Below are positions 45,229 through 60,875 of a stretch of DNA of 64,000 nt, in pieces. The notes beneath the pieces were generated by a model. The model was given only the letters and a program-made list of their open reading frames with translations, was not told the DNA's origin and searched no databases. The DNA comes from Acidobacteriota bacterium. Its GTDB lineage: Bacteria; Acidobacteriota; Terriglobia; 2-12-FULL-54-10. The translations under genes and the position numbers were made by a program. The stretch spans positions 1-64,000 of the forward strand of contig JACPPJ010000023.1 in NCBI GenBank assembly GCA_016191085.1. The letters run 5' to 3'. Every line of letters starts with the position of its first letter. The first letter of the stretch is position 1.

Positions 45229-47620
45229 AATTACGACGAAGCAGCCGGGTCACGCGGGCGTTGAGCTCTGGAACGCTGAATGGCTTCGCGACATAATCGT
45301 CGGCGCCTACCAGATAGCCTCTAGTCCGTCCTTCCTCACTCGAATTTGCGGTCAGCATCATGATGGGGATGAAGGCGGTCTTTACCTGCGTCCGCAGTTG
45401 GTTACAAACGCCGAATCCATCCATGCCGGGCATCATGACATCTAAAACGATCAGGTCGGGACGGAACTCCTCCACGCGCCGAATGGCCTCGAAACCATCG
45501 GCTGCCATCTGCGTTTCAATTGGAAACGGCAGCTGTTCCAGCGCCTTTCGCACGATGATACGAATCGAAGCGTCGTCGTCTACAATCAGTATCTTCGGTT
45601 TCTTTGCAGCAGGAGCGGCACCTGAGGGCGGACCGGCTTCCGCCTTTTCAGCGGAATGGGGAAACGGCGCCGCCGTCTCGCCGATACTCTTGCCATCGCC
45701 GGCACTCCTTGCGGTTTCAACCTTGGACTCGGCTACTTGGGCGGGAGGCAATTGCAGCAGGCTTTCCGAAACTGGACTCTTGCAGAACGGACAAATTCTC
45801 CAATCCTTCTTCAATTCCTGCCGGCATTGCGCGCACACTATCGTAAGCGGGATCAAGCAATTCGGGCAAATAGTAAAGCCGGGCTCGATCGTCGCCCTGC
45901 AATTATGACAGCGCGGCCCAGCGGCTTCCTCCTCGTCTTCCAATTGCAGAACGCGGAATAGTTCACTGACATCTGTGGTTCCCTTGCGGACTAATTCCAG
46001 CCCGCGGTCCAAAAGGAATCTTACGCCCTGGTTGCGCAGCGCCGTCTTAATCTCCACGTCGGACGCTTTAATCGCAACCATCTCCCGAACCGCCTTAGTC
46101 ATGGACAGGAATTCGAGTACTGCAATACGCCCCGAGAAACCAGTCTGGCCGCACTTGGGACATCCCACCGGCTGGTAGTAGATGGTGTCTTCTTTTGTGA
46201 TCCCTAATTTCTGCAGAGTTCGTGCTGGAGGCTCATACGGCTGCTTGCACTCCCTGCAAAGCTTGCGAAGCAAGCGCTGCGCGATGACCAATGTTAGGGC
46301 CGAGTTGATCAGCACGGGCTCGACGCCCAGATCAAGCAAACGGCTCAGCGACGCGATGGCGCTGTTCGTATGCAGAGTGGAAAGAACCAGGTGTCCGGTC
46401 ATGGCGGCATGAAAGGCTATTTCCGAAGTCTCCAGATCACGCATCTCGCCAACCAGGACGATGTCCGGGTCCTGGCGGAGAATTGACCGCAGCGCCGACG
46501 CGAATGTCAGGCCGGTCTTGGTGTTCACCTGTACCTGATTGATCCCGGGAATTTGATATTCGACCGGGTCTTCCACCGTGATGATGTTCAGCCCTGGGCT
46601 CTTGCGGTGTCCCAGGCAGGACACCAGAGTGGTGGTCTTGCCGCTTCCAGTCGGTCCGGTAACCAGAATCAACCCCTGCGGCTGCATCAGGGCATGGAGC
46701 AGAACGCGCCGGTCTTGCTCGTCCAACCCGAGCTTGTCCAGCGTGGGCATGCTGGATTCCGTGGACAGGATGCGCAAGACCACCTTTTCTCCGAATAGGG
46801 TCGGCAGAGTCGAAACGCGGAAATCGTATCCTTGCCCGCCTGTGTTCACTTTGATGCGCCCGTCCTGCGGCAACCGGCGCTCCGCGATGTCGAGGCGGGA
46901 AAGCACTTTCAGGCGCGAGCAGATCGGATTGATCAGCCACTTAGGCAGTTGCATGACCGGCCGCAGTACCCCATCCACACGGAACCGCACCTGGAGATCG
47001 TTTAATGTTGGCTCCACGTGAATATCGGTCGCGCCTTGTGTGATGGCATCCTGTATCATCAGGTTCACTACCTTCACGACGGGCGGTAGTTCCGAGGCGC
47101 TGAGGCTTCGTGAAAGATCCACATCGGTGTCGCTGTCCGGCGAGCTGATTCTGACATCCATCGCCGCGTCCAGATTGTCGGTGAAGGAGCGCAGAGTGTC
47201 CTCTGTCTGATAGTTCTTCTCGATGGCATCCAGAATTTCGGTACGAGTGGCCACAAAAATTTTCACTGTGCGGCCGAGGACAAATTGAATGTCTTGCAAA
47301 GCGCTGTAATCGGTCGGATTGGCGATCGCGAGATGCACCTGCCGGCTTTCCAGACGGACGGGAATACACAGGTGCTTGCGAGCCGTTTCCTGGGGCAACA
47401 GTTTTACTGCTTCAGGATCGATGTTGGTGGCAGGAAGATTGATCCTGGGGAAGCGCAAGTAGGACGCGATCGAGTCAGCCAGTCCTTCTTCGCTCACCCG
47501 TTCGTCGCCCAGCACTTGCTCAATCAGGGATTTCTTTTCTTCGGAGCACTTGATGATAGCAGTCCGCAGTTCATCCTGGGTAATGCCGCCGGCGATCATT
47601 AACGGTTCTTTTCGTTCCAC
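45218..47620 (-). CDS. GspE/PilB-type ATPase fused to zinc ribbons and a receiver
   Basis: 800 residues from a GTG. Residues 1-140 form the GspE N-terminal domain; 180-560 the secretion ATPase with Walker A GPTGSGKTT (322-330), the Asp box TVEDPVEYQIPG, Walker B DIVLVGEM, the His box and CxxC pairs at 455-458 and 487-490. Residues 571-614 hold two more zinc ribbons (four CxxC). Residues 676-800 are a full receiver (Asp727, AKPF). PilB/GspE powers pilus or type II secretion assembly. No other pilus genes are here, and the receiver fusion suggests control by phosphorylation. Confidence 0.93.
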   Translation of the reverse strand: MERKEPLMIAGGITQDELRTAIIKCSEEKKSLIEQVLGDERVSEEGLADSIASYLRFPRINLPATNIDPEAVKLLPQETARKHLCIPVRLESRQVHLAIANPTDYSALQDIQFVLGRTVKIFVATRTEILDAIEKNYQTEDTLRSFTDNLDAAMDVRISSPDSDTDVDLSRSLSASELPPVVKVVNLMIQDAITQGATDIHVEPTLNDLQVRFRVDGVLRPVMQLPKWLINPICSRLKVLSRLDIAERRLPQDGRIKVNTGGQGYDFRVSTLPTLFGEKVVLRILSTESSMPTLDKLGLDEQDRRVLLHALMQPQGLILVTGPTGSGKTTTLVSCLGHRKSPGLNIITVEDPVEYQIPGINQVQVNTKTGLTFASALRSILRQDPDIVLVGEMRDLETSEIAFHAAMTGHLVLSTLHTNSAIASLSRLLDLGVEPVLINSALTLVIAQRLLRKLCRECKQPYEPPARTLQKLGITKEDTIYYQPVGCPKCGQTGFSGRIAVLEFLSMTKAVREMVAIKASDVEIKTALRNQGVRFLLDRGLELVRKGTTDVSELFRVLQLEDEEEAAGPRCHNCRATIEPGFTICPNCLIPLTIVCAQCRQELKKDWRICPFCKSPVSESLLQLPPAQVAESKVETARSAGDGKSIGETAAPFPHSAEKAEAGPPSGAAPAAKKPKILIVDDDASIRIIVRKALEQLPFPIETQMAADGFEAIRRVEEFRPDLIVLDVMMPGMDGFGVCNQLRTQVKTAFIPIMMLTANSSEEGRTRGYLVGADDYVAKPFSVPELNARVTRLLRRNYGL

Positions 47621-47636
47621 TACGCCTCACCTTTCC

Positions 47637-48872
47637 TTACAGATCGACTGATTGACCTTCTTGAGCCAGGAAGCACGTGAACGCATAATTCCGATCCGCA
47701 ATGGTATTCTTACAGAAATTCGCGATTCCATCCAGAAAAGCGTCATCATGAGAGGGATCATGGTGGAAAATTGCCAGTTGCTTCACCTGCGCCTCTGCCG
47801 CCCGCTCCAGCGCGTCCAAAAACGTACTATGGCCCCATCCCTTTTTCTGCTCATACTCTTCGTCGGTGTACTGCGCTTCGCAGATCAGTAAATCCGCCTT
47901 TTCGGCGAAACGTGCGATCTCCTGATCCATGGTATTAGGCCTCCCTCGATTAGGAGCCAAGCGCCAGTACGGTTCGTGATCGCTCAAGTAAACCACAGAT
48001 CGTTCCCCGAAGTTAATGCGAAACCCTATGGCCAGTCCGGGGTGGTTCAGGAATACATATGAAACTTCCACTGCACCCAATTGCACTGTCGATTCCAACT
48101 CGCAGAAGGTTAGCTTCGCCTTCAAGTCGTTCAGCCGGACCGGAAAATAATCGCTATCCATTTGACCGCGAAAAATCTTTTCCAGCGGTTTTTCGGCTCC
48201 ATGCAGGCTGTAGATCGTAAACTCATTGCCGAACATGAATACCGGCGCAAAGAAAGGAAACCCCTGGATGTGATCCCAATGGGTGTGCCCTACGAATATG
48301 TGCCCCTTGACGGGACGCCGCGAAAACTCCGCGAGCAAAGAGAGCCCTAATAGCCGGATTCCAGTGCCCGCATCCAGGATGAGCAACTGATCGTCACATC
48401 GAACTTCCGTGCATGCAGTGTTACCGCCGTATTTAATAGTGCTCGGCCCTGGCGCTGCAATGGAGCCCCGCGTCCCCCAGAATCGAACGGCAAACGGCAA
48501 TCGGCGATTGTCGCCCAATAACTCGGCGACCGTTTCCCAGAACTCTTGGAGGGCATACGGCTTCGACAAATAGCGATCGGCACCAAGCTGGAGAACCCGG
48601 TCAATATCCGTTGCGTATGTTTTTGCGGAACATACCATTATCTTCATTTCGCTAAGCATCGGGTCCGCGCGGATTTCCTGTATCAGCGTAAAACCGTGCA
48701 CTTTGGGCATCATCAGGTCGAGAACGACGACATCGGGCCGGATTTGCCGGAGCAACCGCAACCCTTCCGCGCCGTCTCCCGCCGTGAACGTCTCGACTCC
48801 TTCCATCTGCAGGCGCTTTGAAGCCACGGCCAATATTCCGGGGTCGTCATCAACGACAAGAACTCGCTTCAT
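47637..48872 (-). CDS. Receiver fused to a metallo-beta-lactamase-fold hydrolase
   Basis: 411 residues from the ATG at 48872; an upstream in-frame start exists but lies in low-quality sequence. Receiver 1-120: VVDDDPG, acceptor Asp52 in LDLMMPKVHG, Lys104 in YLSKPY. Residues 128-405: MBL fold with RFWGTRGSIAAPGPST, LDAGTGI and HTHWDH (196-201), resembling RNase Z/phosphodiesterase types. The substrate is unknown; cyclic nucleotides or RNA are possible. It is 16 bases upstream of the GspE-like gene, hence probably one operon with it and the J-domain gene. Confidence 0.92.
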   Translation of the reverse strand: MKRVLVVDDDPGILAVASKRLQMEGVETFTAGDGAEGLRLLRQIRPDVVVLDLMMPKVHGFTLIQEIRADPMLSEMKIMVCSAKTYATDIDRVLQLGADRYLSKPYALQEFWETVAELLGDNRRLPFAVRFWGTRGSIAAPGPSTIKYGGNTACTEVRCDDQLLILDAGTGIRLLGLSLLAEFSRRPVKGHIFVGHTHWDHIQGFPFFAPVFMFGNEFTIYSLHGAEKPLEKIFRGQMDSDYFPVRLNDLKAKLTFCELESTVQLGAVEVSYVFLNHPGLAIGFRINFGERSVVYLSDHEPYWRLAPNRGRPNTMDQEIARFAEKADLLICEAQYTDEEYEQKKGWGHSTFLDALERAAEAQVKQLAIFHHDPSHDDAFLDGIANFCKNTIADRNYAFTCFLAQEGQSVDL

Positions 48873-49014
48873 GCCTGATCCTAGCCCAAAATTCAGGAAA
48901 GAGGACAAAAGCGGCGAGACGGAGGACCAGAAGCGTGGGTTCCTACGACACACGCATGGGCCACAAGCTCAGGAGCAAGCCGAACAGATGTTCGGGGAGG
49001 CTCCGCCCATCCGT

Positions 49015-49536
49015 TTACTCGGCCCCGGGCACGGTACTGTCCTCTTCCGCTACCACAAACAACATTCTAGTTTTCCCAACGCGGAATTCGCCCAAATGTT
49101 CCAAACGCTGGCGCTGGATGGGCTGCTCGTCTATGAATGTGCCGTTCGTACTCCCCGTATCTACCAAGACGCCATAGCTGCCATGGACCTCCAGCGCGCA
49201 GTGGCTGCCCGACACTTCGGGATCATTTACCACAATATCTGTGCCTACGCGCCCTATGGTCACCGCTGGCTTGCTGAGCCGGAAACTTTGTCCTTTGACG
49301 GGGCCGTCTATAACGACCAGCGAGACCCTCTTGCCGGGCGGGAGTTTGGACTGGCCGTTTACCACGGTGGCTAGTTCATGGTTTTGTGGTGCCGTCGCAA
49401 TATCACTGTGCGCGCGGAAGCTCGCAAGAAAGGGCGTATGGCACTTCATGCACTCGATCTTAATCTGCACCGGGTTTTTCAAACGCGTTTCATCAACAAC
49501 ATGCGCCGTTTTGCAACGAGGACAGTGGACAAGCAT
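49015..49536 (-). CDS. FHA-domain protein with an N-terminal zinc ribbon
   Basis: 173 residues. The first 35 residues form an MJ0042-type zinc ribbon (HCPRCKTAHVVDE..IECMKCHTPF). After a linker, residues 70-165 are an FHA domain: FRLSKPAVTIGRVGTDIVVN, SGSHCALEV and DTGSTNGTFID. FHA binds phosphothreonine, so the plausible partner is the Ser/Thr kinase at 39147 (inference). No membrane segment. It precedes the receiver-MBL gene by about 140 bases on the same strand. Confidence 0.93.
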   Translation of the reverse strand: MLVHCPRCKTAHVVDETRLKNPVQIKIECMKCHTPFLASFRAHSDIATAPQNHELATVVNGQSKLPPGKRVSLVVIDGPVKGQSFRLSKPAVTIGRVGTDIVVNDPEVSGSHCALEVHGSYGVLVDTGSTNGTFIDEQPIQRQRLEHLGEFRVGKTRMLFVVAEEDSTVPGAE

Positions 49537-49732
49537 AAGCTTCTTCGTTCCTGTTGGTTTGCTCCTCTACGGAGCGAATTCTAGCACAAAGGTGCCACTT
49601 GCATAAAATCAATTCATTCCTCCTTCCGCGCAGGGTAACCACTTTCATGAACATAACTTGCAAATGCGTTCGTGTTTGCAATCTTGAATCGGGAGCGCAG
49701 CAGGCGTATGCTTGCGCAGAACGAGGATACGG

Positions 49733-50119
49733 ATGATGGCTATGCAATCTGAAGGAAAACTCCATCGCAAGTCAGTTGATCGCACATGGCCGCGGAGCGA
49801 ATCACGCGTTCACCGCCGAGTGCCGCTGGGAGTTCCGATTGAATGCCATAGCAGCACGAAAATCACTGGAATCGCAGAGAACATTAGTGTAGGCGGGGTT
49901 CTCGTGAGGGCGAAAGATACGCTTCCATGGGATGAGCTCGTCACAGTCAGTTTCTCATTGCCCGGTTCTCCAGAGACACTGCAGATCGGCGCTCGCGTTA
50001 CTCACGTGGTGCCGGAGATGTTCCTGGGACTAGAGTTCCGGGAGTGCCCCGCCGAATTGAAGCAGCGCATCGAGGCATATGTTCGTTCGATTCCGGAGTC
50101 TCAGCCCAACCGCAAATAA
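49733..50119 (+). CDS. PilZ-domain protein
   Basis: 128 residues from the ATG at 49733 (GAGG upstream; several Mets are close together). The c-di-GMP-binding motifs are present: RVHRR as RxxxR, and ENISVGG as (D/N)xSxxG. It is a single PilZ domain, without other modules. PilZ proteins change activity when they bind c-di-GMP and often act on pilus or envelope functions, which agrees with the neighbouring PilB-like ATPase. It is divergent to the FHA gene and convergent with the Crp/Fnr gene. Confidence 0.9.
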   Translation: MMAMQSEGKLHRKSVDRTWPRSESRVHRRVPLGVPIECHSSTKITGIAENISVGGVLVRAKDTLPWDELVTVSFSLPGSPETLQIGARVTHVVPEMFLGLEFRECPAELKQRIEAYVRSIPESQPNRK

Positions 50120-50215
50120 AATCCGTACGGAGACAATCACAGTACTTGGACGATCACCTGTGAGGTGTGTCTGGCGAACGTATACGAGATCTGTGTATCG
50201 TGTATTGCAGTTTGC

Positions 50216-51073
50216 TCATCGGGGAGCGGAGTGACCTGTTTTCGGAGGCTGCTTTGACTTGCCAAAAACTTGTTGGAACTCTCTGGTGATAAGTGAATAG
50301 CACTCGCATGCGGATGATTCCAATTTCTTGCGATCTACAACTTTGATCCTGGAGCGGGAATAATCGATTGCTCCGGCGCTACGCAACACTGCGGCGTGCA
50401 TCGCCACGTCGGGACGCGCAGCGCCTAGCAAGAGGCTGATGGACTCGTGCGTCATGGGGATTTCACCGCCGCGGAGCTCGTCATGAATTCGCAACAGCAA
50501 CCGCGCTAGCCGCTTACTGAGTTCGTGTATCCGGTTACAGGCCGCGTGCTGCGAGACCATAAAGATGCGGCATCGCATATACGCGAGAACAACGGATTGA
50601 AAGCTCCCGCCGCGGTGAAATTCATTCGTAAACGCTGCGGCCTTCATTTGCAGAGCTTTGCCGCCGATCTGCACTAATGCGCCGTAGGGACAGGTTCGAC
50701 TGCCAAGCGCGAGCGGAAGACCCGAGAACCCTCTGCTGCCGATTACGGCGACTTCCACACTGCTGCCGTCTTCCAACGCGGTAATGAGCGAGATCAAGCT
50801 CGATTCCGGAAAAACAGCATGCGTGATTATGCCGCCGGGCTCGTTGAGGACGTGATGCTGATCCAGTACGACCTCTTCTAAACTGTCCAATAGGCGCTTG
50901 TAATCGGCGGCGGGAAGCGCGCGCAAGATGCAATTCTTGGGACGCGAGCACTGGTCGCGAACAATTGCTGGACGCAATTCGTGCGCGCGCTCTACGAGTG
51001 ATCTCCCGTTCAGGTCGCCTACAGGCGTGAGCTCGTGACACCTCTGTTGAGCCCCTGCCCCTCCGTAACGCAT
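50216..51073 (-). CDS. Crp/Fnr-family regulator, last gene of the CHAT operon
   Basis: 285 residues from the ATG at 51073, chosen for AAGGAGATG upstream. It has a sensor barrel (VLDQHHVLNEPGGIITHAVFP), a long helix, and a winged helix (MTHESISLLLGAARPDVAMHAAVLRSAGAI). It is a paralogue of the regulator at 11717-12493, with an extra N-terminal segment of about 45 residues. FeS-sensor Cys are not apparent. It begins 10 bases after the subtilase stop on the same strand, so it is probably co-transcribed with the protease operon. Confidence 0.9.
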   Translation of the reverse strand: MRYGGAGAQQRCHELTPVGDLNGRSLVERAHELRPAIVRDQCSRPKNCILRALPAADYKRLLDSLEEVVLDQHHVLNEPGGIITHAVFPESSLISLITALEDGSSVEVAVIGSRGFSGLPLALGSRTCPYGALVQIGGKALQMKAAAFTNEFHRGGSFQSVVLAYMRCRIFMVSQHAACNRIHELSKRLARLLLRIHDELRGGEIPMTHESISLLLGAARPDVAMHAAVLRSAGAIDYSRSRIKVVDRKKLESSACECYSLITREFQQVFGKSKQPPKTGHSAPR

Positions 51074-51083
51074 CAGCATCTCC

Positions 51084-52475
51084 TTACATTCCCAGCGCAG
51101 CACGCCACGCCAGCACGGCCTGGTAAACGTCCAGACGTCCGTTACCTACGCTGGCCGAAATGGCCTGCGCGTGTGCGATGGCCGCTGCTGCCTGGGTTCC
51201 GCTGGCGTTCTGGATGGAAAGCAATAACGCAGCCGTACCCGAGACCAGAGGCGCGCTATAAGAGGTACCCCACCCAGCGGCATATGTGCCGAACGGGTAA
51301 AACGTGACGATGCCTTCCCCGGGTGCTCCCACATGCACGCCCGTTCCATAGTTCGAGAACAACGAAAGCGCATCGCTGTTGGTCGTGGAGGCAACCCCCA
51401 TGACAGTCGAATACGCGGCGGGATAAACGGCGACGTTTTGACCGTTGTTACCCCCAGACGCCACCGCGATGATGCCAGTGCTATTGGCCAGATTGAGTAC
51501 TGTTTGTAGCGCCGCTGAGCTCGAAGGAAAACTGAAGCTCATGTTCAGAATCTTCGCGCCGTTGCCGATTGCGAAAATGACGGCTCTCACAACGTCGGAC
51601 AGATACCCGGTTCCATTCGCGTTGAAGGTTCTCAACGGCATGATCTTCGTGCTGGGCGATACCAGGCGAATCACTCCGGCGACCATGGTCCCGTGGCCGA
51701 AGGCAGAGTATTTCGGGCTGTCTACCACGGCGGAAGTGGAGTCGTCTACCACGGCGGAGGTCGAGTCGTCTACCACGGCGGAAGTGGAGTCGTCTACTAC
51801 GGCCGCTGTGGAATCGTTGACGTACGCCGGCGGCACGCCTTGCACAATCGGTGGATTCGGAAGGCTTACGGTTGACTTCTCGTCGGGTATTCCGCCCTCG
51901 TTGCGAATAAAATCGTAGCCGGATACAAGAGCACCCTGAAGAGCCGGGTGAGTCGAGTCGACGCCTGTATCGATCACGGCGACCACGCCGGAGCCGGTCA
52001 AATTCCACGTGCTTTGTGTATTTGGCAGGTTGACAATCTGCGTTGCCGGCTGAGTCGCGTACCCGCGCCATACGGTATTGCCGAAGTAATCGACGGGCGT
52101 GTTGTCGTATAAGGCAGGCGGCACGCCTCCTGAAGCCGTCGCGCCCATCACGTTTCCGATCTGGTCAGGCTCCACGGCCACAACCCCCAGAGTATTGAGA
52201 AGGCTGCTCACGAAGGCGGGGGCGTTCGACAAGGCCCCCGTGGTTAGAAGAAAAAATTGACTTCCCGGATCACCCAGCGTGCTCACTCTGATGCAATTGC
52301 CGTTGGCTGAGCAGTTCGTGTGAATCGGGACGGGGCCACCCGACGTACGCACGATGAACCGGTCGGCCATCGCGGGCACAGCGAAGCAGATAAATGTGAT
52401 GAAGAGAAAGAAAATCCGATTTCGATTTGCTTTTATCCTGGCGAACTGGACGACGTGCGTTGGTTCAGTTTTCAT
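51084..52475 (-). CDS. Secreted subtilisin-like serine protease (S8)
   Basis: 463 residues from the ATG at 52475 (GGAAGAGG upstream). The signal peptide is RIFFLFITFICFAVPAMA. Residues about 39-110 resemble the I9-type inhibitory propeptide. The catalytic triad is Asp169 (VIDTGVDSTHPAL), His261 (GHGTMVAG) and Ser405 (GTSYSAPLVSG); Asn343 (GGNNGQN) is the oxyanion residue. Between Asp and His it carries four 8-residue repeats (DSTSAVVD, 221-252) not found in ordinary subtilases. It shares the strand with CHAT and anti-sigma-like genes. Confidence 0.93.
   Translation of the reverse strand: MKTEPTHVVQFARIKANRNRIFFLFITFICFAVPAMADRFIVRTSGGPVPIHTNCSANGNCIRVSTLGDPGSQFFLLTTGALSNAPAFVSSLLNTLGVVAVEPDQIGNVMGATASGGVPPALYDNTPVDYFGNTVWRGYATQPATQIVNLPNTQSTWNLTGSGVVAVIDTGVDSTHPALQGALVSGYDFIRNEGGIPDEKSTVSLPNPPIVQGVPPAYVNDSTAAVVDDSTSAVVDDSTSAVVDDSTSAVVDSPKYSAFGHGTMVAGVIRLVSPSTKIMPLRTFNANGTGYLSDVVRAVIFAIGNGAKILNMSFSFPSSSAALQTVLNLANSTGIIAVASGGNNGQNVAVYPAAYSTVMGVASTTNSDALSLFSNYGTGVHVGAPGEGIVTFYPFGTYAAGWGTSYSAPLVSGTAALLLSIQNASGTQAAAAIAHAQAISASVGNGRLDVYQAVLAWRAALGM
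51721..51816. repeat. Four tandem 24-bp units inside the subtilase gene
   Basis: Four copies of TCTACCACGGCGGAAGTGGA-type units (24 bases each, at 51721, 51745, 51769 and 51793) are nearly identical; the last is diverged. They are in frame and encode the VVDDSTSA-type repeats. Copy number could change by slippage without shifting the frame. Confidence 0.9.
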
Positions 52476-52616
52476 AGACACCTCTTCCGGGAATATCGGT
52501 CTTGGTCTAGGTCAGCAACTTGGAGAAAACACGATGATATGGCGTGGTAGAGAGAAGATGCGTGGACAATGGTGCTGAGCTGGCGAATATTATACATAAA
52601 TGGATCGGTCGTAACA

Positions 52617-53282
52617 TTAATGATTGCTGAGCCACCGGCCTGTAATGAACGTGGGTCGCTCGGTTGCAGAGCTGAGCGGGGGCAAAGGCAGAAAAAGGAA
52701 CTTGCTCCCTTCAAAGTTCACGATCACCTGGACCTCATCAGCGGGGCTAAACTCCAGCCGAAACTCCCCAAGATCATTTGTGACGGTACGTGCCAGCGTC
52801 TCTCGTCCGCTCACGGCCACAATCGGTATGTCCGAAAAAGACATGGCCTGGCTGGCCGGATCGGCGATTTGCCCGATGATGACGATTTGGTCGGGTCCTG
52901 TTTGAGCTTCAATGCGCACATCCACGAAGATGTCGCCCCGTTTAAACAAAATCTGGCGCATTGATACTGTAGTGCCGCGAACTCCCTCTAACGCTGGCTG
53001 ACGAAAGCTGTCGAATACCACCCGTGCGATATTGATTACGCCAAAGAGAGCTTTCTCCGGCTCATACAGGTAATACACGGCTTTAACACAGCGCACCACC
53101 GATTCCGGCGGCGCATATGAAATCTCGTGACTGGCCACTTCCGCCACTTTCTTCCAAATTTCTACGGCGCGGGCGCACGGCATACATCCCTCATTCAAGT
53201 GCTGTTGCATGAGTTCTCGATGCTCCGCATGTTCCTTGACACGCGCATAATCTAACCAATCTTCTAACGTGAAATGCTCCAT
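52617..53282 (-). CDS. Zinc-finger anti-sigma-like protein with a beta-sandwich tail
   Basis: 221 residues from the ATG at 53282 (GGGAGATA upstream). The start MEHFTLEDWLDYARVK and the motif HLNEGCMPCARA (His-x4-Cys-x2-Cys) resemble the zinc anti-sigma (ZAS) domain. There is no membrane helix, unlike many anti-sigma factors. The C-terminal part IVAVSGRETLARTVTNDLGEFRLEF looks like a carboxypeptidase-regulatory-type beta sandwich. Its position between CHAT and subtilase genes, downstream of a sigma factor, supports an anti-sigma role, but binding has not been shown. Confidence 0.75.
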   Translation of the reverse strand: MEHFTLEDWLDYARVKEHAEHRELMQQHLNEGCMPCARAVEIWKKVAEVASHEISYAPPESVVRCVKAVYYLYEPEKALFGVINIARVVFDSFRQPALEGVRGTTVSMRQILFKRGDIFVDVRIEAQTGPDQIVIIGQIADPASQAMSFSDIPIVAVSGRETLARTVTNDLGEFRLEFSPADEVQVIVNFEGSKFLFLPLPPLSSATERPTFITGRWLSNH

Positions 53283-53387
53283 TCTCGTATCTCCCGTACA
53301 GCGGGGCGGAGGCGAACCGCGCCCCATTAAAGTAATAAGGGCAAGCAGGATGCAAAAAAATATAGGTGAGATAAATTTTTCTGTGGA

Positions 53388-56243
53388 TTAACCCTTGCCG
53401 ATCAGCACATACGGCGCCCAATAATAAGGATGAGGCCGCGTCTGACGCAGTTCGTTGACGGCATTCCGCAGCGCCAAGCTCTTGTCAGGAGTACGCCTAA
53501 GCTCGCGGTAAAACATCTTCATAAAATCGGCTGTCGTGCGGTCATGTACGTCCCACAGCGTCAACAGCAGAGTTTGCGCGCCTGACTGAAGCAGGCCGCG
53601 GACAAGTCCCAACAACTCATCGCCCGCCGCCACGATGCTGAGGCCCGTGCTGCACCCGCTTAGGGTCGCTAACTCCACCGGCATGTTCAGATGATGCAGG
53701 TCGTAGAGCGTCAGATGCGAATCGCCGAGGCGAACTGAGGAGAACATGGGGTTGTCGGCGCGGAAGCGACCATGAGTCGCGATGTGAACAATCCGGCTAC
53801 GAGGCGCTTTTTCCCGCAGAACGCTCTCGGTGGCGCTTGCGCCTACGAAAGTTTCCGGCTGTGGAAGTTCATCGGCGACGTACTGCACCTCTTCACGGAT
53901 GAACGGCGCCTGCTCATTGGGAATGCCTAACACCAGCGAAGAGCCGCTTCTATTCACTTGCACCTCTTGGGAAAGCGCATAAATGCTGGCGCTCGGAGCG
54001 TAACTGATGAGAAAAGAATCCAGCAAATATTGATTGCCGTCGAAGAGCGCATGAAACGGCAAATAGTGCAGCAGGCCATGAGGCGAAATGATCAAGCGGG
54101 TTCCGCGCAATTGCGGGCGTATGGGCGCGATCAACATCTCATATAGTTCCCGCAGGTGCCGCTGGGTGGAAGCCAGCAGCAATTCTCCGCACGCTTCCAG
54201 GTACTCCGGCGCCAGACGGAATTTTGCTAGTTGAAATTGGAGCAGTTCCAGAGCGCTTCTGAGTTTGGGCTGTTCGAGGAGCGGAACAATCTCCAGATGC
54301 TGCGCAGTAAGCACCGCTGCGATGATTTGCTGATCTAAGCGGAAGAATTCTACCAGGCTGGCATCGGCGCCCAGCCACATGCGGATGGATTCTACGTTGA
54401 CCGGATGGGGCGCCGGAACACGGCCGGGATGTGATGTCGCCGCAGGCAACTCTCTCATCGTGCGCAGCAACTTTTTTTCATGTTCTTGCGCCTCCATGCG
54501 GAGTTCCTCGACTTTTCGCGGCGACGCGGCTTCCTGATTTACTTCCTCCAACTCGATGCGATGGTAGTACCAGTTCAATTCCTGTCGCAGGTTCTTGATA
54601 TTCTGCAATAACTCGCTTTGTCCGTTCTGTTCGGGCGATGATGAACCCGAATGCTCCGAAAGGATGTCGCGAAGACTCCTGGATTTGGCCTGTTCTATAA
54701 ACTCAAACGCCCGTGCCGAATCGCCCCCAGCCAGCGCCAGGCGCACCAGTCCCTCATAGACGTCAAGCTTATTCGTCATGAAGGCGATTTTTAGTTCTTC
54801 GCCGCGCAGAACGCTGCGGAGGCTTTCCATCTCCGAACGCGCCGCTTGGTACCAGTCGGCGGCCTCCTGATCTTGACCGGCGGCCTCCGCAATCTGCCCC
54901 ATAAGGAAATAGGCCTGGTAAGCCAGATGAGAGGCGTCGAGATTTCCCAGGACGCTCATCGCCTTTGCACACGCAACGCGGGCGGCGTCCAATTCATTTG
55001 TACAGACGAAAAGGCCCGCCTGCAGCAATTGACAGATGACCTGTTTACTCGGTAGCTTGTGCGTTTCAAAAAAATCCAATGCCCCTCCGCAAAGCTTCTG
55101 AGCTTCCTCGCAGCGGCGCTCACGGTAAAGCACCAGGGCCTGATACAAATCAACCAGAAAGGGCCAGACCTGGTGGTTTTCTTTTTCGAAAATCTCTTTG
55201 GCCTGCGCGAAGAGCTCGAGGGCGCGCGATGTGTTGCCTTGCTGGCCGAGGGCGATGGCAAGATTGGCGACGGACCGTGCAGCCTCGTACCTCATTCCGA
55301 GCGCTTTAAACTGCGCGAAGGCTTCTTGCGCCATTTCTGCGGCTTCGTTGCTCAGATTCAATTCAAGGTAGATTTCAGACTGGTCGAGATTGCAGAGCGC
55401 GCTGTGGTAGGAATCGCCGGTATTGCGGCTGGCTTCGCGCGCAGCCTGGAGCATTTCCAGAGCTCGGTTATACTCGCCTCTCAGATAATGCAGGTATGCG
55501 ATATTGTAGTCAGCCTGGGCCACCAAAGCAGGCATGCCATGTTCCCGGCAAAAGGCACGCGCGCGTTCGTATGTATCGAGTGCCCTTTGAAAATCGTTCA
55601 GATTGATGAGGCATACCGCCATGTTGTGGAGAGCGACACCGATCGCTTCCGCATCTTTGAACTCCACTGCTTTCTGGTAGGCGCGCTCGTACATCGCCTC
55701 AGCTTCGGCAAAACGGTCTTGCCGGTGATAAATGTTGGCGACGTTCAGCTCCAGGCGGGCCAATCGCAAGCCGTCACCGGAGTCCGTAAAAATCTGGCGC
55801 GCCCGCTCCGCTCCCTGCAGCGCCCGCTCGTATTCGCCCAAACGGATTAAGGGTTGAATCGACGAACTGATGGTGCGGCCGATCTCAGTGCAGTTGTTTG
55901 TACTCTGGAAAAGGGAAATTGCCTGGTCGTAAAGCTCCACTGCTTCCTTATTATGGTTCAGAAACCACAGAGCATTCGCCTTGGCACGAAGTGCGCGAGC
56001 TTTCGAGTCCGTCGTGCCGATCTCGTCGGCCACCACCAAAGCAGCATCGGCGATCCGCAGGCTCTCCTGCGCGTTTACCCTAAGATTCTCTCGCGCGACC
56101 TCAGCGAGCTTTTCTACCAGGTCGGGTGGAAGCAGGCTGCGGTGACGGCTTAAGAACCCTCTCAGGCTCACAGTATCCGTCGCCTTAATTAGTTCCTCGA
56201 CCAGTTTTTCACGCGGAACTTCCACGTTGAAATCGCTGGTCAT
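53388..56243 (-). CDS. TPR-CHAT protein (caspase-like protease)
   Basis: 951 residues from the ATG at 56243, which overlaps the sigma-factor stop (TGATG); a TTG one codon earlier is possible. Residues about 1-500 are TPR units (RAFEFIEQAKSR, RALDTYERARAF). A coiled coil follows (about 560-610). The CHAT domain (about 640-951) has the catalytic His824 in HIATHGRF and Cys864 in LSGCSTG, and the ending WAPYVLIG. CHAT proteases are activated by partner binding at the TPRs. Coupling to a sigma factor and a subtilase suggests a proteolytic response circuit. Confidence 0.94.
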   Translation of the reverse strand: MTSDFNVEVPREKLVEELIKATDTVSLRGFLSRHRSLLPPDLVEKLAEVARENLRVNAQESLRIADAALVVADEIGTTDSKARALRAKANALWFLNHNKEAVELYDQAISLFQSTNNCTEIGRTISSSIQPLIRLGEYERALQGAERARQIFTDSGDGLRLARLELNVANIYHRQDRFAEAEAMYERAYQKAVEFKDAEAIGVALHNMAVCLINLNDFQRALDTYERARAFCREHGMPALVAQADYNIAYLHYLRGEYNRALEMLQAAREASRNTGDSYHSALCNLDQSEIYLELNLSNEAAEMAQEAFAQFKALGMRYEAARSVANLAIALGQQGNTSRALELFAQAKEIFEKENHQVWPFLVDLYQALVLYRERRCEEAQKLCGGALDFFETHKLPSKQVICQLLQAGLFVCTNELDAARVACAKAMSVLGNLDASHLAYQAYFLMGQIAEAAGQDQEAADWYQAARSEMESLRSVLRGEELKIAFMTNKLDVYEGLVRLALAGGDSARAFEFIEQAKSRSLRDILSEHSGSSSPEQNGQSELLQNIKNLRQELNWYYHRIELEEVNQEAASPRKVEELRMEAQEHEKKLLRTMRELPAATSHPGRVPAPHPVNVESIRMWLGADASLVEFFRLDQQIIAAVLTAQHLEIVPLLEQPKLRSALELLQFQLAKFRLAPEYLEACGELLLASTQRHLRELYEMLIAPIRPQLRGTRLIISPHGLLHYLPFHALFDGNQYLLDSFLISYAPSASIYALSQEVQVNRSGSSLVLGIPNEQAPFIREEVQYVADELPQPETFVGASATESVLREKAPRSRIVHIATHGRFRADNPMFSSVRLGDSHLTLYDLHHLNMPVELATLSGCSTGLSIVAAGDELLGLVRGLLQSGAQTLLLTLWDVHDRTTADFMKMFYRELRRTPDKSLALRNAVNELRQTRPHPYYWAPYVLIGKG

Positions 56244-56839
56244 CAAAAACCCGCCTTTTCAAGCAACATGCGCAAACGTTGCAGGCACCTGCGACGTATG
56301 AACCCCATCGAACCCTTGGCTATGCCCAGGCTGGCCGCTACTTGCTGGTACGGCCGTGGGGGATTTTCGTAAAACAACGATTTGACCAATTGACGGCACC
56401 GCGCCGACACCTGTTCCAGAGCATGCCGGAGCATTTGTTCGCGCTCGACCTGTTGAATGAGCTCTTCGGGCGTTTTTGTGACTTCTTCGGTCAACGTTGT
56501 TTTTGCTTCCGAAACGTCGGTGATGACTTGACGCTGCTGCTGACGTTTCACCTCAATGCATTTGTGTGAGGTCACCTGGATCAACCACGACGTAAGAGCG
56601 CGTGGCTCACGCAAACGGTGCAGCTCCGTAAGTAAATCCACTATAACAGATTGGAAAATGTCGGCGGCGTCTTCTTGCGAGAGATGGAACCGGATAGGAA
56701 TCGAAAATATAAGGTTCTTGTATCGATCTACCAGTGCATTCCACGCCCCCTGGTTGCCGTGGAGACACTCCCGGACCAGCCGCGGTTCGGACCAACGAAT
56801 TTGTTCCGCGTCAGACGGGGCTACCGTTTTTGCTGCCAT
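56243..56839 (-). CDS. ECF-like RNA polymerase sigma factor
   Basis: 198 residues. Region 2 reads LVRECLHGNQGAWNALVDRY and EDAADIFQSVIVDLL; region 4 reads ARCRQLVKSLFYENPPRPYQ and VAASLGIAKGSMGFIRRRCL with its helix-turn-helix. No region 3 is present, as in ECF types. It is the first gene of the minus-strand cluster and its stop overlaps the CHAT start. The downstream zinc-finger protein is a plausible anti-sigma factor. No autoregulatory promoter could be assigned. Confidence 0.92.
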   Translation of the reverse strand: MAAKTVAPSDAEQIRWSEPRLVRECLHGNQGAWNALVDRYKNLIFSIPIRFHLSQEDAADIFQSVIVDLLTELHRLREPRALTSWLIQVTSHKCIEVKRQQQRQVITDVSEAKTTLTEEVTKTPEELIQQVEREQMLRHALEQVSARCRQLVKSLFYENPPRPYQQVAASLGIAKGSMGFIRRRCLQRLRMLLEKAGF

Positions 56840-57320
56840 GTGCTCGCCGAAAAGCTCATCGGGGCGATCTTCCGCTCTGTGGAACAGGTATAGAACGGCT
56901 TGGCTGGGCTAGTAAGTCCAGCCGCGGGGGATGGCTTTTTAGATGCGAGAGCCGGTTTGGCCGATATCATGACCCCCGGCCGACATCGGAAACTACGTCG
57001 CGGTTATTAATTGGATTTTTTGGCTTGTTTTTCGCAAAGCCCAAACGCAACTAACTGATACCGCGACGTTTCTCGGATGCTTGGGTACCGGAATACGTTC
57101 TCAGGCTCATCAGCACTTCTGGCGGCGTCTCCCTTCGCGAGGCGCAGCACTGCCCCTGCATCATTGCCCACCTCCTCCTCAGATCTCACAATTGAAGATT
57201 TGAACACAAGAACTTCATTTAGCCAATCGTGAATCAGCGTAAATCGTCAATTTATGCGGCGCTGTTTGACTCCTGCGATTTATTGCACCTACACTGTGCA
57301 AGAAACCTCCAGGAGGAATC
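56840..57320. other. Divergent spacer upstream of the sigma operon
   Basis: About 480 bases between the sigma factor (minus) and GlcG-like gene (plus). It must hold both promoters. The plus side has no clear boxes. A short frame with a strong ribosome-binding site on the minus strand is listed separately. Confidence 0.4.
57051..57164 (-). CDS. Possible 37-residue leader peptide upstream of the sigma gene
   Basis: Two adjacent ATGs at 57159-57164 follow a very strong GAGGAGGAGG site. The frame MMQGQCCASRRETPPEV continues for 37 codons to a stop at 57051. It has a Cys pair and is basic, and does not match anything I know. It is 210 bases upstream of the sigma factor on the same strand and might be an upstream peptide or chance. 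Confidence 0.3.
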   Translation of the reverse strand: MMQGQCCASRRETPPEVLMSLRTYSGTQASEKRRGIS

Positions 57321-57737
57321 ATGGCGAATACTATTGCTCATCAGACGATCACAGAAGAGGCGGCGCACAAGATGATCGCCGCCGCGGAGAAGAAGGCTCA
57401 GGAACTGAAGAAGGCCATGGTTATCGCGATCTGCGATGAGGCCGGAAACCTGAAAGCATTTTCACGCATGGACGGGGCACCGTTGCTCAGCGTGCAGATC
57501 GCCCAGGACAAAGCCTACACCGCGATCAGCTTCGGCATCGCCACGCATCAGTGGTTTGAGTTCATCAAAAACGATCCGCCGCTGCTGCACGGCATCGTGC
57601 ACACGGCTCGCCTGGTTGTGTTCGGCGGCGGTTACCCCATCGAGGTCAACGGGCAAGTGGTCGGCGGCATCGGGGTCAGCGGCGGACATTACTCAGAAGA
57701 CATGCAATGCGCCGAGGAGGCATTGAAGGCGCTGTAA
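57321..57737 (+). CDS. GlcG/HbpS-family heme-binding-like protein
   Basis: 138 residues with CAGGAGG before the ATG. The fold signature is clear: KMIAAAEKKAQELKKAMVIA, DEAGNLKAFSRMDGAPLLSV, DKAYTAISFG and GGYPIEVNGQVVGGIGVSGG. Family members include HbpS, which binds heme and senses oxidative stress, and GlcG of unknown role. There is no signal peptide. It stands alone between the sigma operon (divergent) and the response regulator (convergent). Confidence 0.88.
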   Translation: MANTIAHQTITEEAAHKMIAAAEKKAQELKKAMVIAICDEAGNLKAFSRMDGAPLLSVQIAQDKAYTAISFGIATHQWFEFIKNDPPLLHGIVHTARLVVFGGGYPIEVNGQVVGGIGVSGGHYSEDMQCAEEALKAL

Positions 57738-57833
57738 TGAAGCGAAAGGCAGTCGGTAGCCACGACGAGTTCGTCGTGGGCTTTTGATTGCGAACCCCAC
57801 GGCGAGAATGACGCTCGGGGGGCTACCCTGAAC

Positions 57834-59210
57834 TCAAATGCCGTACTTGCTGGCGTAATGGCGGAATGAGCGGTAGCTCATTTTCAGCAGATCTGCGGCG
57901 CGCGTGCGAACTCCTTTCGCGCGAATGAGAGCGGCCTCCAGCAGATTGCGCTCAATCTCCTGGATGTGTTTCTCCAGGTCGATGCCATCTTCGGGCAAAT
58001 CAATCAACGACAGCGCTCCCGTGCGCGGCTCCAGGCCGCCGATGACGCGCTCGGGAAGCGAGTTCGGCGAGATTTCGGAGCCTTTTTCTAAAGCGACTGC
58101 GCGTTCAATAGCGTGTTCCATCTCACGGACGTTACCAGGCCAGGGGTATTTTTCCATCAACCGGATGGTTTCGGGCGCGACGCAGCGAATCGTTTTTCCC
58201 ATCTGCTGGTTGAATTTTTCCAGGAAGTGAAACGCCAGCAGCGGAATGTCGCTGGGACGTTTGCGCAGCGGCGGAATGTGAATCGGAATAACGCTGATGC
58301 GATAGTAAAGATCTTCGCGAAACTGCTTCTGCTGAACCATGTTCTGCAGGTCGCGATTGGACGCAGCGAGCAGGCGCACGTCCACCTCGATCTCCTCGTT
58401 CCCTCCCACCGGCCGGATCTTACGCTCCTGTACTGCCCGCAGCAATTTCACTTGCATGGGTAGACTCATCTCGCCGATCTCGTCCAGAAAGAGCGTTCCA
58501 CAGGATGAGTACTCGAACAAACCCTTCTTGTTCGAATTGGCTCCGGTGAACGCGCCCTTCCTATATCCGAACAGTTCGCTTTCAAGAAGCGTTTCCTGAA
58601 ACGCGCTGCAGTTGATGGACACGAACGGCTTGTCGCACCGCTGGCTGCGCGAGTGAATGGCGCGCGCGACGAGTTCCTTGCCAGTGCCGCTTTCCCCTAG
58701 AATCAGAACCGTGCTCTGCGTGGGAGCCACGCTCTCAATCAACTCAAACAGGGCCTTCATCGGCGGGCTCTGACCTACGATGTTGTCGAGCCCCCCTTGC
58801 TTCTTCAGCTCTCTTTTCAGGGTAACGTTTTCAGCTTTGATCTGACTGGTCTCGAGGGCGCGGTCGATAGCCACTTTCAGTTCTTCGAGATATTGCGACG
58901 GGTTTTTGATGATGTAATCGAACGCCCCCATCTTGACCGCCTGCATGGCGGTCTCGAGCTCCCCGTAGCCGGTCAACAGGATCACCAAGGTATCGGGGTG
59001 CGCGTTGCGGACGTGCTGCAAAAGCTCCAAGCCGCTGGCCTGCGGCATTTTTATATCGGAGACGACGATGTCGTAGATCTTCGATTGCAATTTTTGGCGC
59101 GCCGCAGCCACGGTTTGCACCGTCTCCACGCTGTGGCCATCTTTGCGAAATGCAATTTCGAGCACCTCGCAAATGGAGCGTTCGTCGTCAACAATCAGGA
59201 GATTTGCCAT
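57834..59210 (-). CDS. NtrC/PilR-type sigma-54 response regulator
   Basis: 458 residues: receiver (1-120; VDDERS, acceptor Asp in IVVSDIKMPQASG), AAA+ domain (about 140-380) with GESGTGKELVARAIH, GAFTGA (the sigma-54 contact loop) and GTLFLDEIGEM, and a Fis-type helix-turn-helix at the C-terminus (AALIRAKGVRTRAADLLKMS). It opens sigma-54 promoters when phosphorylated. It starts 18 bases after the kinase gene stop, so the two are a cognate pair. Resemblance to PilR suggests pilus-type targets, not shown here. Confidence 0.95.
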   Translation of the reverse strand: MANLLIVDDERSICEVLEIAFRKDGHSVETVQTVAAARQKLQSKIYDIVVSDIKMPQASGLELLQHVRNAHPDTLVILLTGYGELETAMQAVKMGAFDYIIKNPSQYLEELKVAIDRALETSQIKAENVTLKRELKKQGGLDNIVGQSPPMKALFELIESVAPTQSTVLILGESGTGKELVARAIHSRSQRCDKPFVSINCSAFQETLLESELFGYRKGAFTGANSNKKGLFEYSSCGTLFLDEIGEMSLPMQVKLLRAVQERKIRPVGGNEEIEVDVRLLAASNRDLQNMVQQKQFREDLYYRISVIPIHIPPLRKRPSDIPLLAFHFLEKFNQQMGKTIRCVAPETIRLMEKYPWPGNVREMEHAIERAVALEKGSEISPNSLPERVIGGLEPRTGALSLIDLPEDGIDLEKHIQEIERNLLEAALIRAKGVRTRAADLLKMSYRSFRHYASKYGI

Positions 59211-59228
59211 ATGTGATTCGCACGCTGC

Positions 59229-60875
59229 TCAGGGCTGCGCAACTCTGGGAACCTTGATCGGCTGCTGATCTTTGGGTTGCAACGGGGCGGCCAGAGGCAG
59301 TTCGATTCGGAATACGCATCCCTGTCTCGTGGACTCCGCTTGAATGCTCCCTTTGTGCGCCTGCACGATCTGGTACACAATTGCCAGGCCGAGGCCAGTT
59401 CCTCCCTCAAAATCCGATTGGAAGGGCTCGAATAGTTTTTCCGCCTGGCGCGGTGTCAAGCCGGCGCCGGTGTCTCGAAACAATAATTCGACATGATCCT
59501 TCTGCGGCTTCACCTGAACTGAGAGAGTTCCGCCCTGGGGCATAGCTTTCAGCGCGTTGTCGCCGAGGTTCCAGAAGACCTGACGGATCCGGTTCGCATC
59601 CACGGAAGCCAATACCGGCGTGCTTGGCACTTCCTTGATGACGCGGTAGCGGCGATCGAACTTGGGGTGATTGCGCAAGAGCGTGAGCGTCTCTTCCAGA
59701 ATCTCACTGAGATTTACCACCGCGAACTCGAACTTCATCTCGCGCGAGTACTGCAGAAAATCGTTGATGATAGTGTTGAGCCGTTCCGACTCTTTCATGA
59801 CGATCTTGATGAGCCGCTGTTCTTGTGCTTCGCCCCCAACCATTCCGGAGAAAAGCTTAACGGAACCCGCGATGGAAGCCAAGGGGTTGCGGATTTCATG
59901 CGCGATGGCAGCGGCCATGCGCCCGATCGCAGCCATACGGTCCTGAAGCTGTATCTCGCGCTCGAGCTGCTTCATCTGGGTGACGTCCTGGAAATTGTAG
60001 ACGTATCCCACGGTTTGTGCATTACGGGTCAGCGGGCTTACCGTGAGCCCTAGGTATTTTTTCTGTTCGTTATCATCGCTCCAGACGACCTCCCGGCGCA
60101 CACTGGACAGGCCGCCAAATGGTTGCAGCGCCGCTTGCGGAAACAGGGATTGTATCGGCCTGTGGCGCAGTGATCCTGCAGGCAAACCGAGGATCTCGCC
60201 TGCAGCCGAATTCGACAGCAAAATGTGCCCATTCAGATCCGTAGTGATTAGCCCGCTGCGCAGGCTCTCGATGATGTCCTGGTTCAGGGCTTGCAAATCT
60301 TTCAGCTCGACGCCCGTCTGGCGAAGAGTTTCGGCGAGCTTGCTGCCGAGGTGCGCCACTGCCAGAAATGCAACCAAGTTGGCAGCGATCTTTAACTGCA
60401 GCTCTTTCAGGTCCGGACGCACCAGACCGTAGAAGGGGACCAGATCGAAGTAAGGCAGCTCCAGCACGATGCCCGCATAGATAAACGATACGCAGGCCAT
60501 CAGGTAAGCGCCACCGCGCGGCAAGATGACACTCGCCACCCATACCGTGAGTGGATATAGCAGGTAAAAGTAGCTGTCCAGGCCCCCCGTGAAGTACACC
60601 ACGAGTGAAACCAAGATGAGGTCCAGCACCACCTGCATGTACGATTGCGTAACATAGTCGGTGCTGATCTTGAGCAGCACGTAATAGATCAAATCCAGCA
60701 CGCACCAGATCACCAGGACGGCGAGGAAGAACTTCATCGGAACCTGCACGACGGTCAAATTCTGGAAACGTGCATATTGCTGAACAGACAATTCGATTCC
60801 CAACAGGAAACTGATCGTCACGATGCGAACGCGCATCAGCCAGGAAAGCCGTTGCCGCTGGTCTTCAAATACCAA
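59229..60875 (-). CDS. PilS-like membrane histidine kinase
   Basis: 548 residues from a TTG at 60875, chosen because GAGAGGTAG lies just upstream; a longer frame from 61031 reads like non-coding sequence. About six membrane helices (20-200) resemble the PilS sensor. A PAS domain (SLRSGLITTDLNGHILLSNS) and the H-box AAAIAHEIRNPLASIAGSVK follow, then N, G1 and G2 boxes (FWNLGDNALKAM, RDTGAGL, GGTGLGLAIVYQIV). It phosphorylates the adjacent NtrC-type regulator. Confidence 0.93.
   Translation of the reverse strand: MVFEDQRQRLSWLMRVRIVTISFLLGIELSVQQYARFQNLTVVQVPMKFFLAVLVIWCVLDLIYYVLLKISTDYVTQSYMQVVLDLILVSLVVYFTGGLDSYFYLLYPLTVWVASVILPRGGAYLMACVSFIYAGIVLELPYFDLVPFYGLVRPDLKELQLKIAANLVAFLAVAHLGSKLAETLRQTGVELKDLQALNQDIIESLRSGLITTDLNGHILLSNSAAGEILGLPAGSLRHRPIQSLFPQAALQPFGGLSSVRREVVWSDDNEQKKYLGLTVSPLTRNAQTVGYVYNFQDVTQMKQLEREIQLQDRMAAIGRMAAAIAHEIRNPLASIAGSVKLFSGMVGGEAQEQRLIKIVMKESERLNTIINDFLQYSREMKFEFAVVNLSEILEETLTLLRNHPKFDRRYRVIKEVPSTPVLASVDANRIRQVFWNLGDNALKAMPQGGTLSVQVKPQKDHVELLFRDTGAGLTPRQAEKLFEPFQSDFEGGTGLGLAIVYQIVQAHKGSIQAESTRQGCVFRIELPLAAPLQPKDQQPIKVPRVAQP

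Follow-up and report, generated by a model that had tools for sequence, protein, structure and literature searches.

For most bacterial CHAT proteases we know of no native target. In the type III-E CRISPR system (CASP/Craspase) the protease Csx29 cleaves the C-terminal domain of Csx30 within a small flexible loop, and the N-terminal domain of Csx30 binds an extracytoplasmic function (ECF) sigma factor (PMC10028731). In a type III CRISPR system the protease CalpL cuts the anti-sigma factor CalpT (PMC11417357). ECF54 sigma factors are encoded among CHAT, subtilase and carboxypeptidase proteins, and proteolysis without an anti-sigma factor has been proposed for them; the same review lists AntA as the sole ECF sigma factor shown experimentally to be controlled by its own proteolysis (PMC8999054). 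In eukaryotes, separase cuts after Arg (PMC7863939; PMC4626109), and two of its acidic residues have been proposed to bind this Arg (PMC4626109). Here we analyzed a window of 64,000 nucleotides (contig JACPPJ010000023.1 of assembly GCA_016191085.1, an Acidobacteriota bacterium), which has on its minus strand five open reading frames (ORFs) that were annotated with Pfam: a sigma factor (SIG), a TPR-CHAT protein (CHAT), a protein that had been labeled a zinc finger (ZF), an S8 subtilase (S8) and a Crp/Fnr-type regulator (CRP). We propose, with a probability of about 0.5, that SIG, ZF, CHAT and S8 make up a cytoplasmic, protease-released sigma switch.

To follow these genes in relatives we searched for ZF and CHAT in about 300 and about 200 genomes of the phylum, respectively, and fetched 40 neighborhoods that were annotated by profile searches. 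A scan across phyla with one genome per species and a seven-row sigma alignment as the query gave 80 named loci; these rank highest among at least 572 sigma hits, and frequencies among them are not unbiased. With a single CHAT protein as the query against genome contigs relatives were not found, and a broad sigma alignment was dropped as a query because it was too variable. SIG was present in 78 of the 88 CHAT clusters and all four genes in 60, with the order SIG>ZF>CHAT>S8 in 53 of these 60. In the window's class the order is SIG>CHAT>ZF>S8, and it was seen in 20 further loci, excepting pieces cut by contig ends. The median gaps between module genes were 71, 11 and 49 bases. The module was found in Acidobacteriota, Chloroflexota, Planctomycetota, Burkholderiales and Rubrobacter, and the loci from the sigma scan include Blastocatellia, Chloracidobacterium, Sulfopaludibacter, Chloroflexaceae, Anaerolineae, Phycisphaerae, Rubrivivax and Rubrobacter; many of the loci come from metagenome bins, in which the assigned phylum may be incorrect. 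Recurrence of four genes in a kept order in dozens of genomes and several phyla is beyond chance, and SIG, ZF, CHAT and S8 are thus a conserved four-gene module of at least five bacterial phyla. The original prediction, made from the window alone, had expected all five genes to keep their order in relatives. For the four core genes this order is kept and the idea survives, but the gene for CRP is not part of it. Because six other genomes from the same family as the window all lack a CHAT gene, the distribution of the module is patchy. Several diverged copies occur in some genomes (G132 with L083-L088, G009 with L089-L091, and also L181, L183).

In Pfam, ZF alone gave a weak CarboxypepD_reg match and nothing else. 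By contrast, a profile of 27 ZF homologues matched the anti-sigma-W factor RsiW (8.1e-7 over 76 residues), and against the PDB the ZF profile matched DdvA (1.4e-4), chain 3hug_B (0.0064), which we take to be RslA, and ChrR (0.04). Single members of the family matched zf-HC2 and CarboxypepD_reg. An AlphaFold model of ZF, with a predicted local distance difference test score (pLDDT) of 79, has helices at residues 6-13, 19-30, 34-51 and 60-73 and then beta strands. Three helices and a fourth are the pattern of class I anti-sigma factors (PMC7406223), and ZF has both this pattern, as a three-helix bundle with a fourth helix, and profile similarity to known members. Foldseek with both full models, the second being of a homologue without the zinc ligands, gave weak beta-sandwich matches only, with E above 0.003. 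In this second model the zinc-less homologues of Chloroflexota and Planctomycetota keep the four N-terminal helices, and they still match DdvA (8ROT, 7.4e-4). The zinc-type motif for which the protein was first named is present in the window, but its spacing is H-x4-C-x2-C and not the classical H-x3-C-x2-C, a motif that class I members need not have. Some H-x3/4-C-x2-C motif was found in 52 of 97 ZF homologues, a count that misses a few with long N-terminal extensions. With zinc ligands in about half of the family, "zinc finger" describes a trait of lineages and "anti-sigma protein" the family.

Few members of the ZF family have a membrane-like stretch by hydropathy. In five sister sigma loci of Chloroflexota without CHAT (L129, L133, L137, L144, L162) a zf-HC2 and FecR protein stands in the ZF slot after SIG, and the sequences of these proteins have a hydrophobic stretch between the two domains. 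Such an architecture is usual for anti-sigma factors. This suggests that membrane anti-sigma factors and CHAT-controlled ones have replaced each other at this position. The profiles, the AlphaFold model and the sister-locus proteins all agree with the anti-sigma role that the original prediction had given to this protein, and its anti-sigma identity is well supported. From these comparisons ZF is very probably a soluble class I anti-sigma protein that would hold SIG by its N-terminal helical domain.

A single residue of ZF, Arg102, is invariant. It was found in 97 of 97 homologues and in 78 of 78 after 50% clustering, at a mean identity of 26%. Arg102 lies between the strands at residues 87-91 and 108-115, in a segment where the other positions vary and insertions and deletions occur. 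The consensus is G-x-R followed by Ser (49), Gly (27) or Ala (7), together 83 of the 97. The mean pLDDT of the loop is 67-72 in the window model and 60 in that of the zinc-less homologue. A loose loop in which only one residue is fixed is what would be expected at a site of recognition or cleavage. In the linker of SIG no basic residue is conserved in this way. We give even odds to the prediction that CHAT cleaves ZF directly C-terminal to Arg102, where an exposed loop joins the anti-sigma domain to the beta sandwich.

The CHAT gene of the window is the only one found in the 3.47-Mb assembly. Its product scores above the curated cut-off of PF12770 with catalytic His and Cys present, and this dyad is nearly invariant among 86 module CHATs. 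The core profile matched Csx29 chains (4.4e-9), DdvA weakly (0.025) and separase (0.0045, over the equal-length ranges 32-97 and 405-470), the last being a distant similarity. Asp902 (D902, numbered from the TTG start) is Asp in 84 of 85 module CHATs. It falls on the W-D-V-T-D segment of separase, in which the aligned Asp presumably binds the P1 Arg. The Csx29 sequences compared have Ser or Pro at this position.

S8 matches PF00082 with an Asp/His/Ser triad that is kept across the family. By hydropathy, 60 of 64 S8 proteins have a membrane-like stretch, mostly N-terminal, and 53 of the 64 have a hydrophobic, signal-like N-terminus, whereas SIG proteins have no membrane-like stretch. Because S8 has an export-like N-terminus and SIG and ZF do not, CHAT and ZF can meet in the cytoplasm while S8 is, judged by hydropathy, probably exported. 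This makes it unlikely that CHAT cuts the S8 precursor, which the original prediction had offered as one of two links. It is somewhat more probable that secreted S8 is an output of the switch than that it is a step of it. In the window's class S8 has between its catalytic Asp and His a tandem repeat of eight residues, approximately [QD]STxxVLD, in 2 to 5 copies. This insert was found in 24 of 29 S8 proteins of the class and in none of 73 outside it. The repeat is uniform within one protein and differs between lineages (the window has the unit DSTSAVVD); loci with repeat-bearing S8 are L180, L181, L183, L189-L199 and others.

These data led us to the following scheme, which builds on what was observed of gene content, gene order, domain identity and conservation. 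ZF would hold SIG by its N-terminal helical domain until a signal, possibly sensed via the TPR region, activates CHAT. CHAT would then cut ZF after Arg102, and the remnant would, by analogy with Csx30 and CalpT, release SIG or be degraded, so that SIG could start transcription, with secreted S8 as the likely output. Distance correlations, given the other proteins, were 0.39 for SIG-ZF, 0.34 for ZF-CHAT and 0.08 for SIG-CHAT, which fits ZF as the middle partner within a test limited by noise in the shorter proteins. Part of the circuit in the original prediction is retained in this scheme: there is a conserved gene set around the sigma factor, ZF appears to be its anti-sigma protein, and the cutting of a regulator by CHAT, which is predicted, is the likeliest link and now has a candidate site in Arg102. 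Its two other parts, cleavage of the S8 precursor and membership of CRP, are not retained.

Several observations weigh against the scheme. The strongest correlation was CHAT-S8 (0.58), which the scheme does not predict; noise in short proteins may explain this. We found no shared promoter motif upstream of SIG with k-mer and dyad counts, so autoregulation is unsupported, and scans for sigma-70 promoters and terminators were at chance level. Csx29 cuts with no essential residue at its cut site (PMC10028731), and Arg102 may instead serve in docking or in structure, or belong to a pseudosubstrate that inhibits CHAT. Two loci (L108, L120) have SIG and a ZF with the Arg loop, and CHAT was not found by tblastn on the stretch fetched. 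In L062-L065, four loci of a single Acidobacteriota family, and among several Burkholderiales ZF has only a truncated anti-sigma domain or none, so that anti-sigma action as drawn here cannot hold in these lineages. The ZF homologues of L062-L065, which are without this domain, keep the Arg loop, the beta sandwich and the CHAT partner.

The persistence of the loop in lineages that have lost the anti-sigma domain fits another role for ZF, as an inhibitor or scaffold of CHAT. The Arg102 loop would then occupy the active site of CHAT as a pseudosubstrate, like securin in separase, and CHAT would act on some other target once ZF is displaced; an invariant loop Arg is equally compatible with a substrate and with a pseudosubstrate. 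However, the P1 residue of securin is a proline that cannot be cleaved (PMC7863939), whereas the Arg102 site, with its small residue after the Arg, looks fully cleavable, and nearly every cluster has SIG too. We consider this role rather unlikely. It is also conceivable that CHAT is a terminal effector, with the sigma factor and anti-sigma protein controlling two proteases, intracellular CHAT and extracellular S8, with the cell itself or an invader as their target; ZF would then be an ordinary anti-sigma protein with a ligand-sensing beta sandwich. CHAT and S8 proteases do occur in conflict systems. DdvS, the anti-sigma factor of which (DdvA) has a CHAT-like domain, controls a CBASS-CRISPR island (PMC12288465). 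In PADLOC, S8 gave weak IetS matches, but besides these only a general subtilase model was matched and no other strong match was obtained. Also, no defense genes were recognized next to the window cluster, and the terminal-effector role leaves the invariant Arg unexplained, so we regard it as unlikely.

Direct degradation of SIG by CHAT or another protease of the cluster, with no anti-sigma step, was proposed for ECF54 from gene neighborhood (PMC8999054). This seems quite improbable here, since both profile and model identify the "carboxypeptidase" neighbor as an anti-sigma protein, the SIG linker has no conserved candidate site and the partial correlation of SIG with CHAT is near zero. That the genes form a loose cluster without functional coupling might be argued from the purely local presence of CRP and from the lack of CHAT in the other genomes of the family. 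For the four core genes this is refuted by the order and strand kept across phyla and the short gaps noted above, and we give it hardly any credence. The switch in which CHAT would cut ZF to free SIG is the reading we retain.

The coordinates of the features are listed in Table 1. ORFs were called mechanically and their start sites are uncertain. All five same-strand ORFs were confirmed by ORF calls and Pfam at the place where they had been predicted. The predicted overlap of the CHAT start with the SIG stop is also real, as the CHAT ATG and the SIG stop have one base in common (TGATG at 56243). The catalytic residues named in the original prediction, His824 and Cys864 of CHAT and the triad of S8, are intact in numbering from ATG; numbering from the longer ORFs puts the dyad one higher and the triad two higher. 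The Crp ORF has in-frame ATGs 4 and 10 bases past the S8 stop, the second at the distance given in the original prediction. A CRP homologue was absent from 40 of 40 Acidobacteriota neighborhoods and from 20 of 20 further loci (60 in total), which ruled CRP out as a member of the module and leaves its predicted part in the circuit without support. CRP has seven matches in this genome, and there are many in the class, some in tandem. Because of this and its absence from the 60 neighborhoods, CRP is a local neighbor only.

Table 1. Positions in the window of the cluster genes and of features within them (aa, amino acids).
Feature	Description	Coordinates	Strand	Basis
SIG	ECF-type sigma factor, 198 aa, sigma2 and sigma4, without C-terminal extension	56243..56839	-	Pfam Sigma70_r2 2.3e-8, Sigma70_r4 8.9e-4; TIGR02937 sigma70-ECF 2.3e-22
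CHAT	TPR-CHAT cysteine protease, 952 aa from TTG, 951 from ATG at 56243	53388..56246	-	Pfam CHAT 1.1e-64 (219 bits), TPR_12
ZF	Predicted soluble class I anti-sigma protein, 221 aa from ATG at 53282: helical anti-sigma domain at the N-terminus, variable loop holding the invariant Arg, CarboxypepD_reg-like beta sandwich at the C-terminus	52617..53282 (ORF to 53327)	-	Profile matches, AlphaFold model
Anti-sigma domain of ZF	Residues 1-75, with H-x4-C-x2-C motif	53058..53282	-	Alignment, model, profile
Codon of ZF Arg102	Proposed CHAT cleavage site (after GVR, before GTT)	52977..52979	-	Arg in 97/97 homologues
S8	Putatively secreted subtilase, 463 aa from ATG at 52475, triad Asp169/His261/Ser405	51084..52475 (ORF to 52481)	-	Pfam Peptidase_S8 4.8e-34; hydrophobic N-terminus
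Tandem repeat in S8	24-bp repeat, 4.1 copies, unit DSTSAVVD, between catalytic Asp and His	51720..51817	-	Repeat seen in sequence
CRP	Crp/Fnr-type regulator, adjoins the module, not a member	50216..51079 (GTG ORF to 51103)	-	HTH_Crp_2 7.9e-12; weak cNMP-binding domain match

The gene set has already been published as the context of ECF54 (PMC8999054), so the set itself is not new. In the literature searched, mostly non-subscription journals, we found no description of the anti-sigma identity of ZF, the Arg as a scissile site, the switch in gene order or the spread across phyla. The anti-sigma identity of this carboxypeptidase-like protein and Arg102 as a candidate scissile site seem new, and the different gene order of the window's class and the phylum spread are new points. 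Because the four-gene module spans at least five phyla and the scheme names one enzyme, one substrate and one bond predicted to be cut, the questions of CHAT targets and of sigma factor proteolysis can be tested directly on small soluble proteins. It is possible, although we hold this only tentatively, that the module represents a widespread CRISPR-free switch, with an arginine-specific, separase-like CHAT whose dedicated substrate is a soluble anti-sigma protein cut at one invariant Arg, and that type III-E CRISPR recruited its protease-sigma arm from such a module. If true, this would be a non-CRISPR counterpart to the CRISPR-linked protease-sigma circuits.

As a comparison, the CASP/Craspase system (Csx29, Csx30, CASP-sigma; PMC10028731) has, like the window, a TPR-CHAT protein with a His/Cys dyad, an ECF sigma factor and a soluble two-domain inhibitor, and the flexible loop cut in the C-terminal domain of Csx30 has a predicted analogue in the loop of ZF. 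The two differ in that no gene the size of Cas7-11 lies beside the window cluster (the largest ORF listed in 46000-60500 is the 952-aa CHAT), that Csx29 lacks an Asp aligned with D902 and that the window module has S8 in addition. At the sequence level, Csx30 was not, by name, among PDB matches of the ZF profile with E up to 10. In CalpL-CalpT-CalpS (PMC11417357), as predicted here, a cytosolic protease cuts the anti-sigma factor of an ECF sigma factor, but CalpL is a Lon-type protease with a SAVED domain and not a CHAT protease. With class I anti-sigma factors of the RsiW/FecR type ZF shares the three helices and a fourth and, in many members, the HCC zinc motif; it differs in having no membrane segment and in its C-terminal part, a CarboxypepD_reg-like beta sandwich that bears the Arg loop. 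Separase has a CHAT-related, caspase-like domain and cuts after Arg, but it is eukaryotic, is regulated in another way and is only distantly similar (E 0.0045).

In the DdvS-DdvA system of Myxococcus xanthus (PDB 8RLZ, 8ROT, 8RW5) a zinc-type anti-sigma domain and a CHAT-like domain likewise serve one ECF sigma factor, and the ZF profile matches the N-terminus of DdvA. Both domains are in one protein there, described as transmembrane in the title of the paper, whereas in the window they are in separate, apparently soluble proteins. Chain B of 8ROT and 8RW5, a "CHAT domain-containing protein" of 991 residues, begins with the DdvA sequence and thus appears to be full-length DdvA. The ECF54 context, which was reportedly given by Casas-Pastor et al. 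in 2021, is matched by the window in its ECF sigma factor and in its CHAT, subtilase and carboxypeptidase-type neighbors, and SIG is probably a member of ECF54 or near to it. The difference is that ECF54 was described without an anti-sigma factor, whereas the carboxypeptidase-regulatory-like protein of the window carries a predicted anti-sigma domain.
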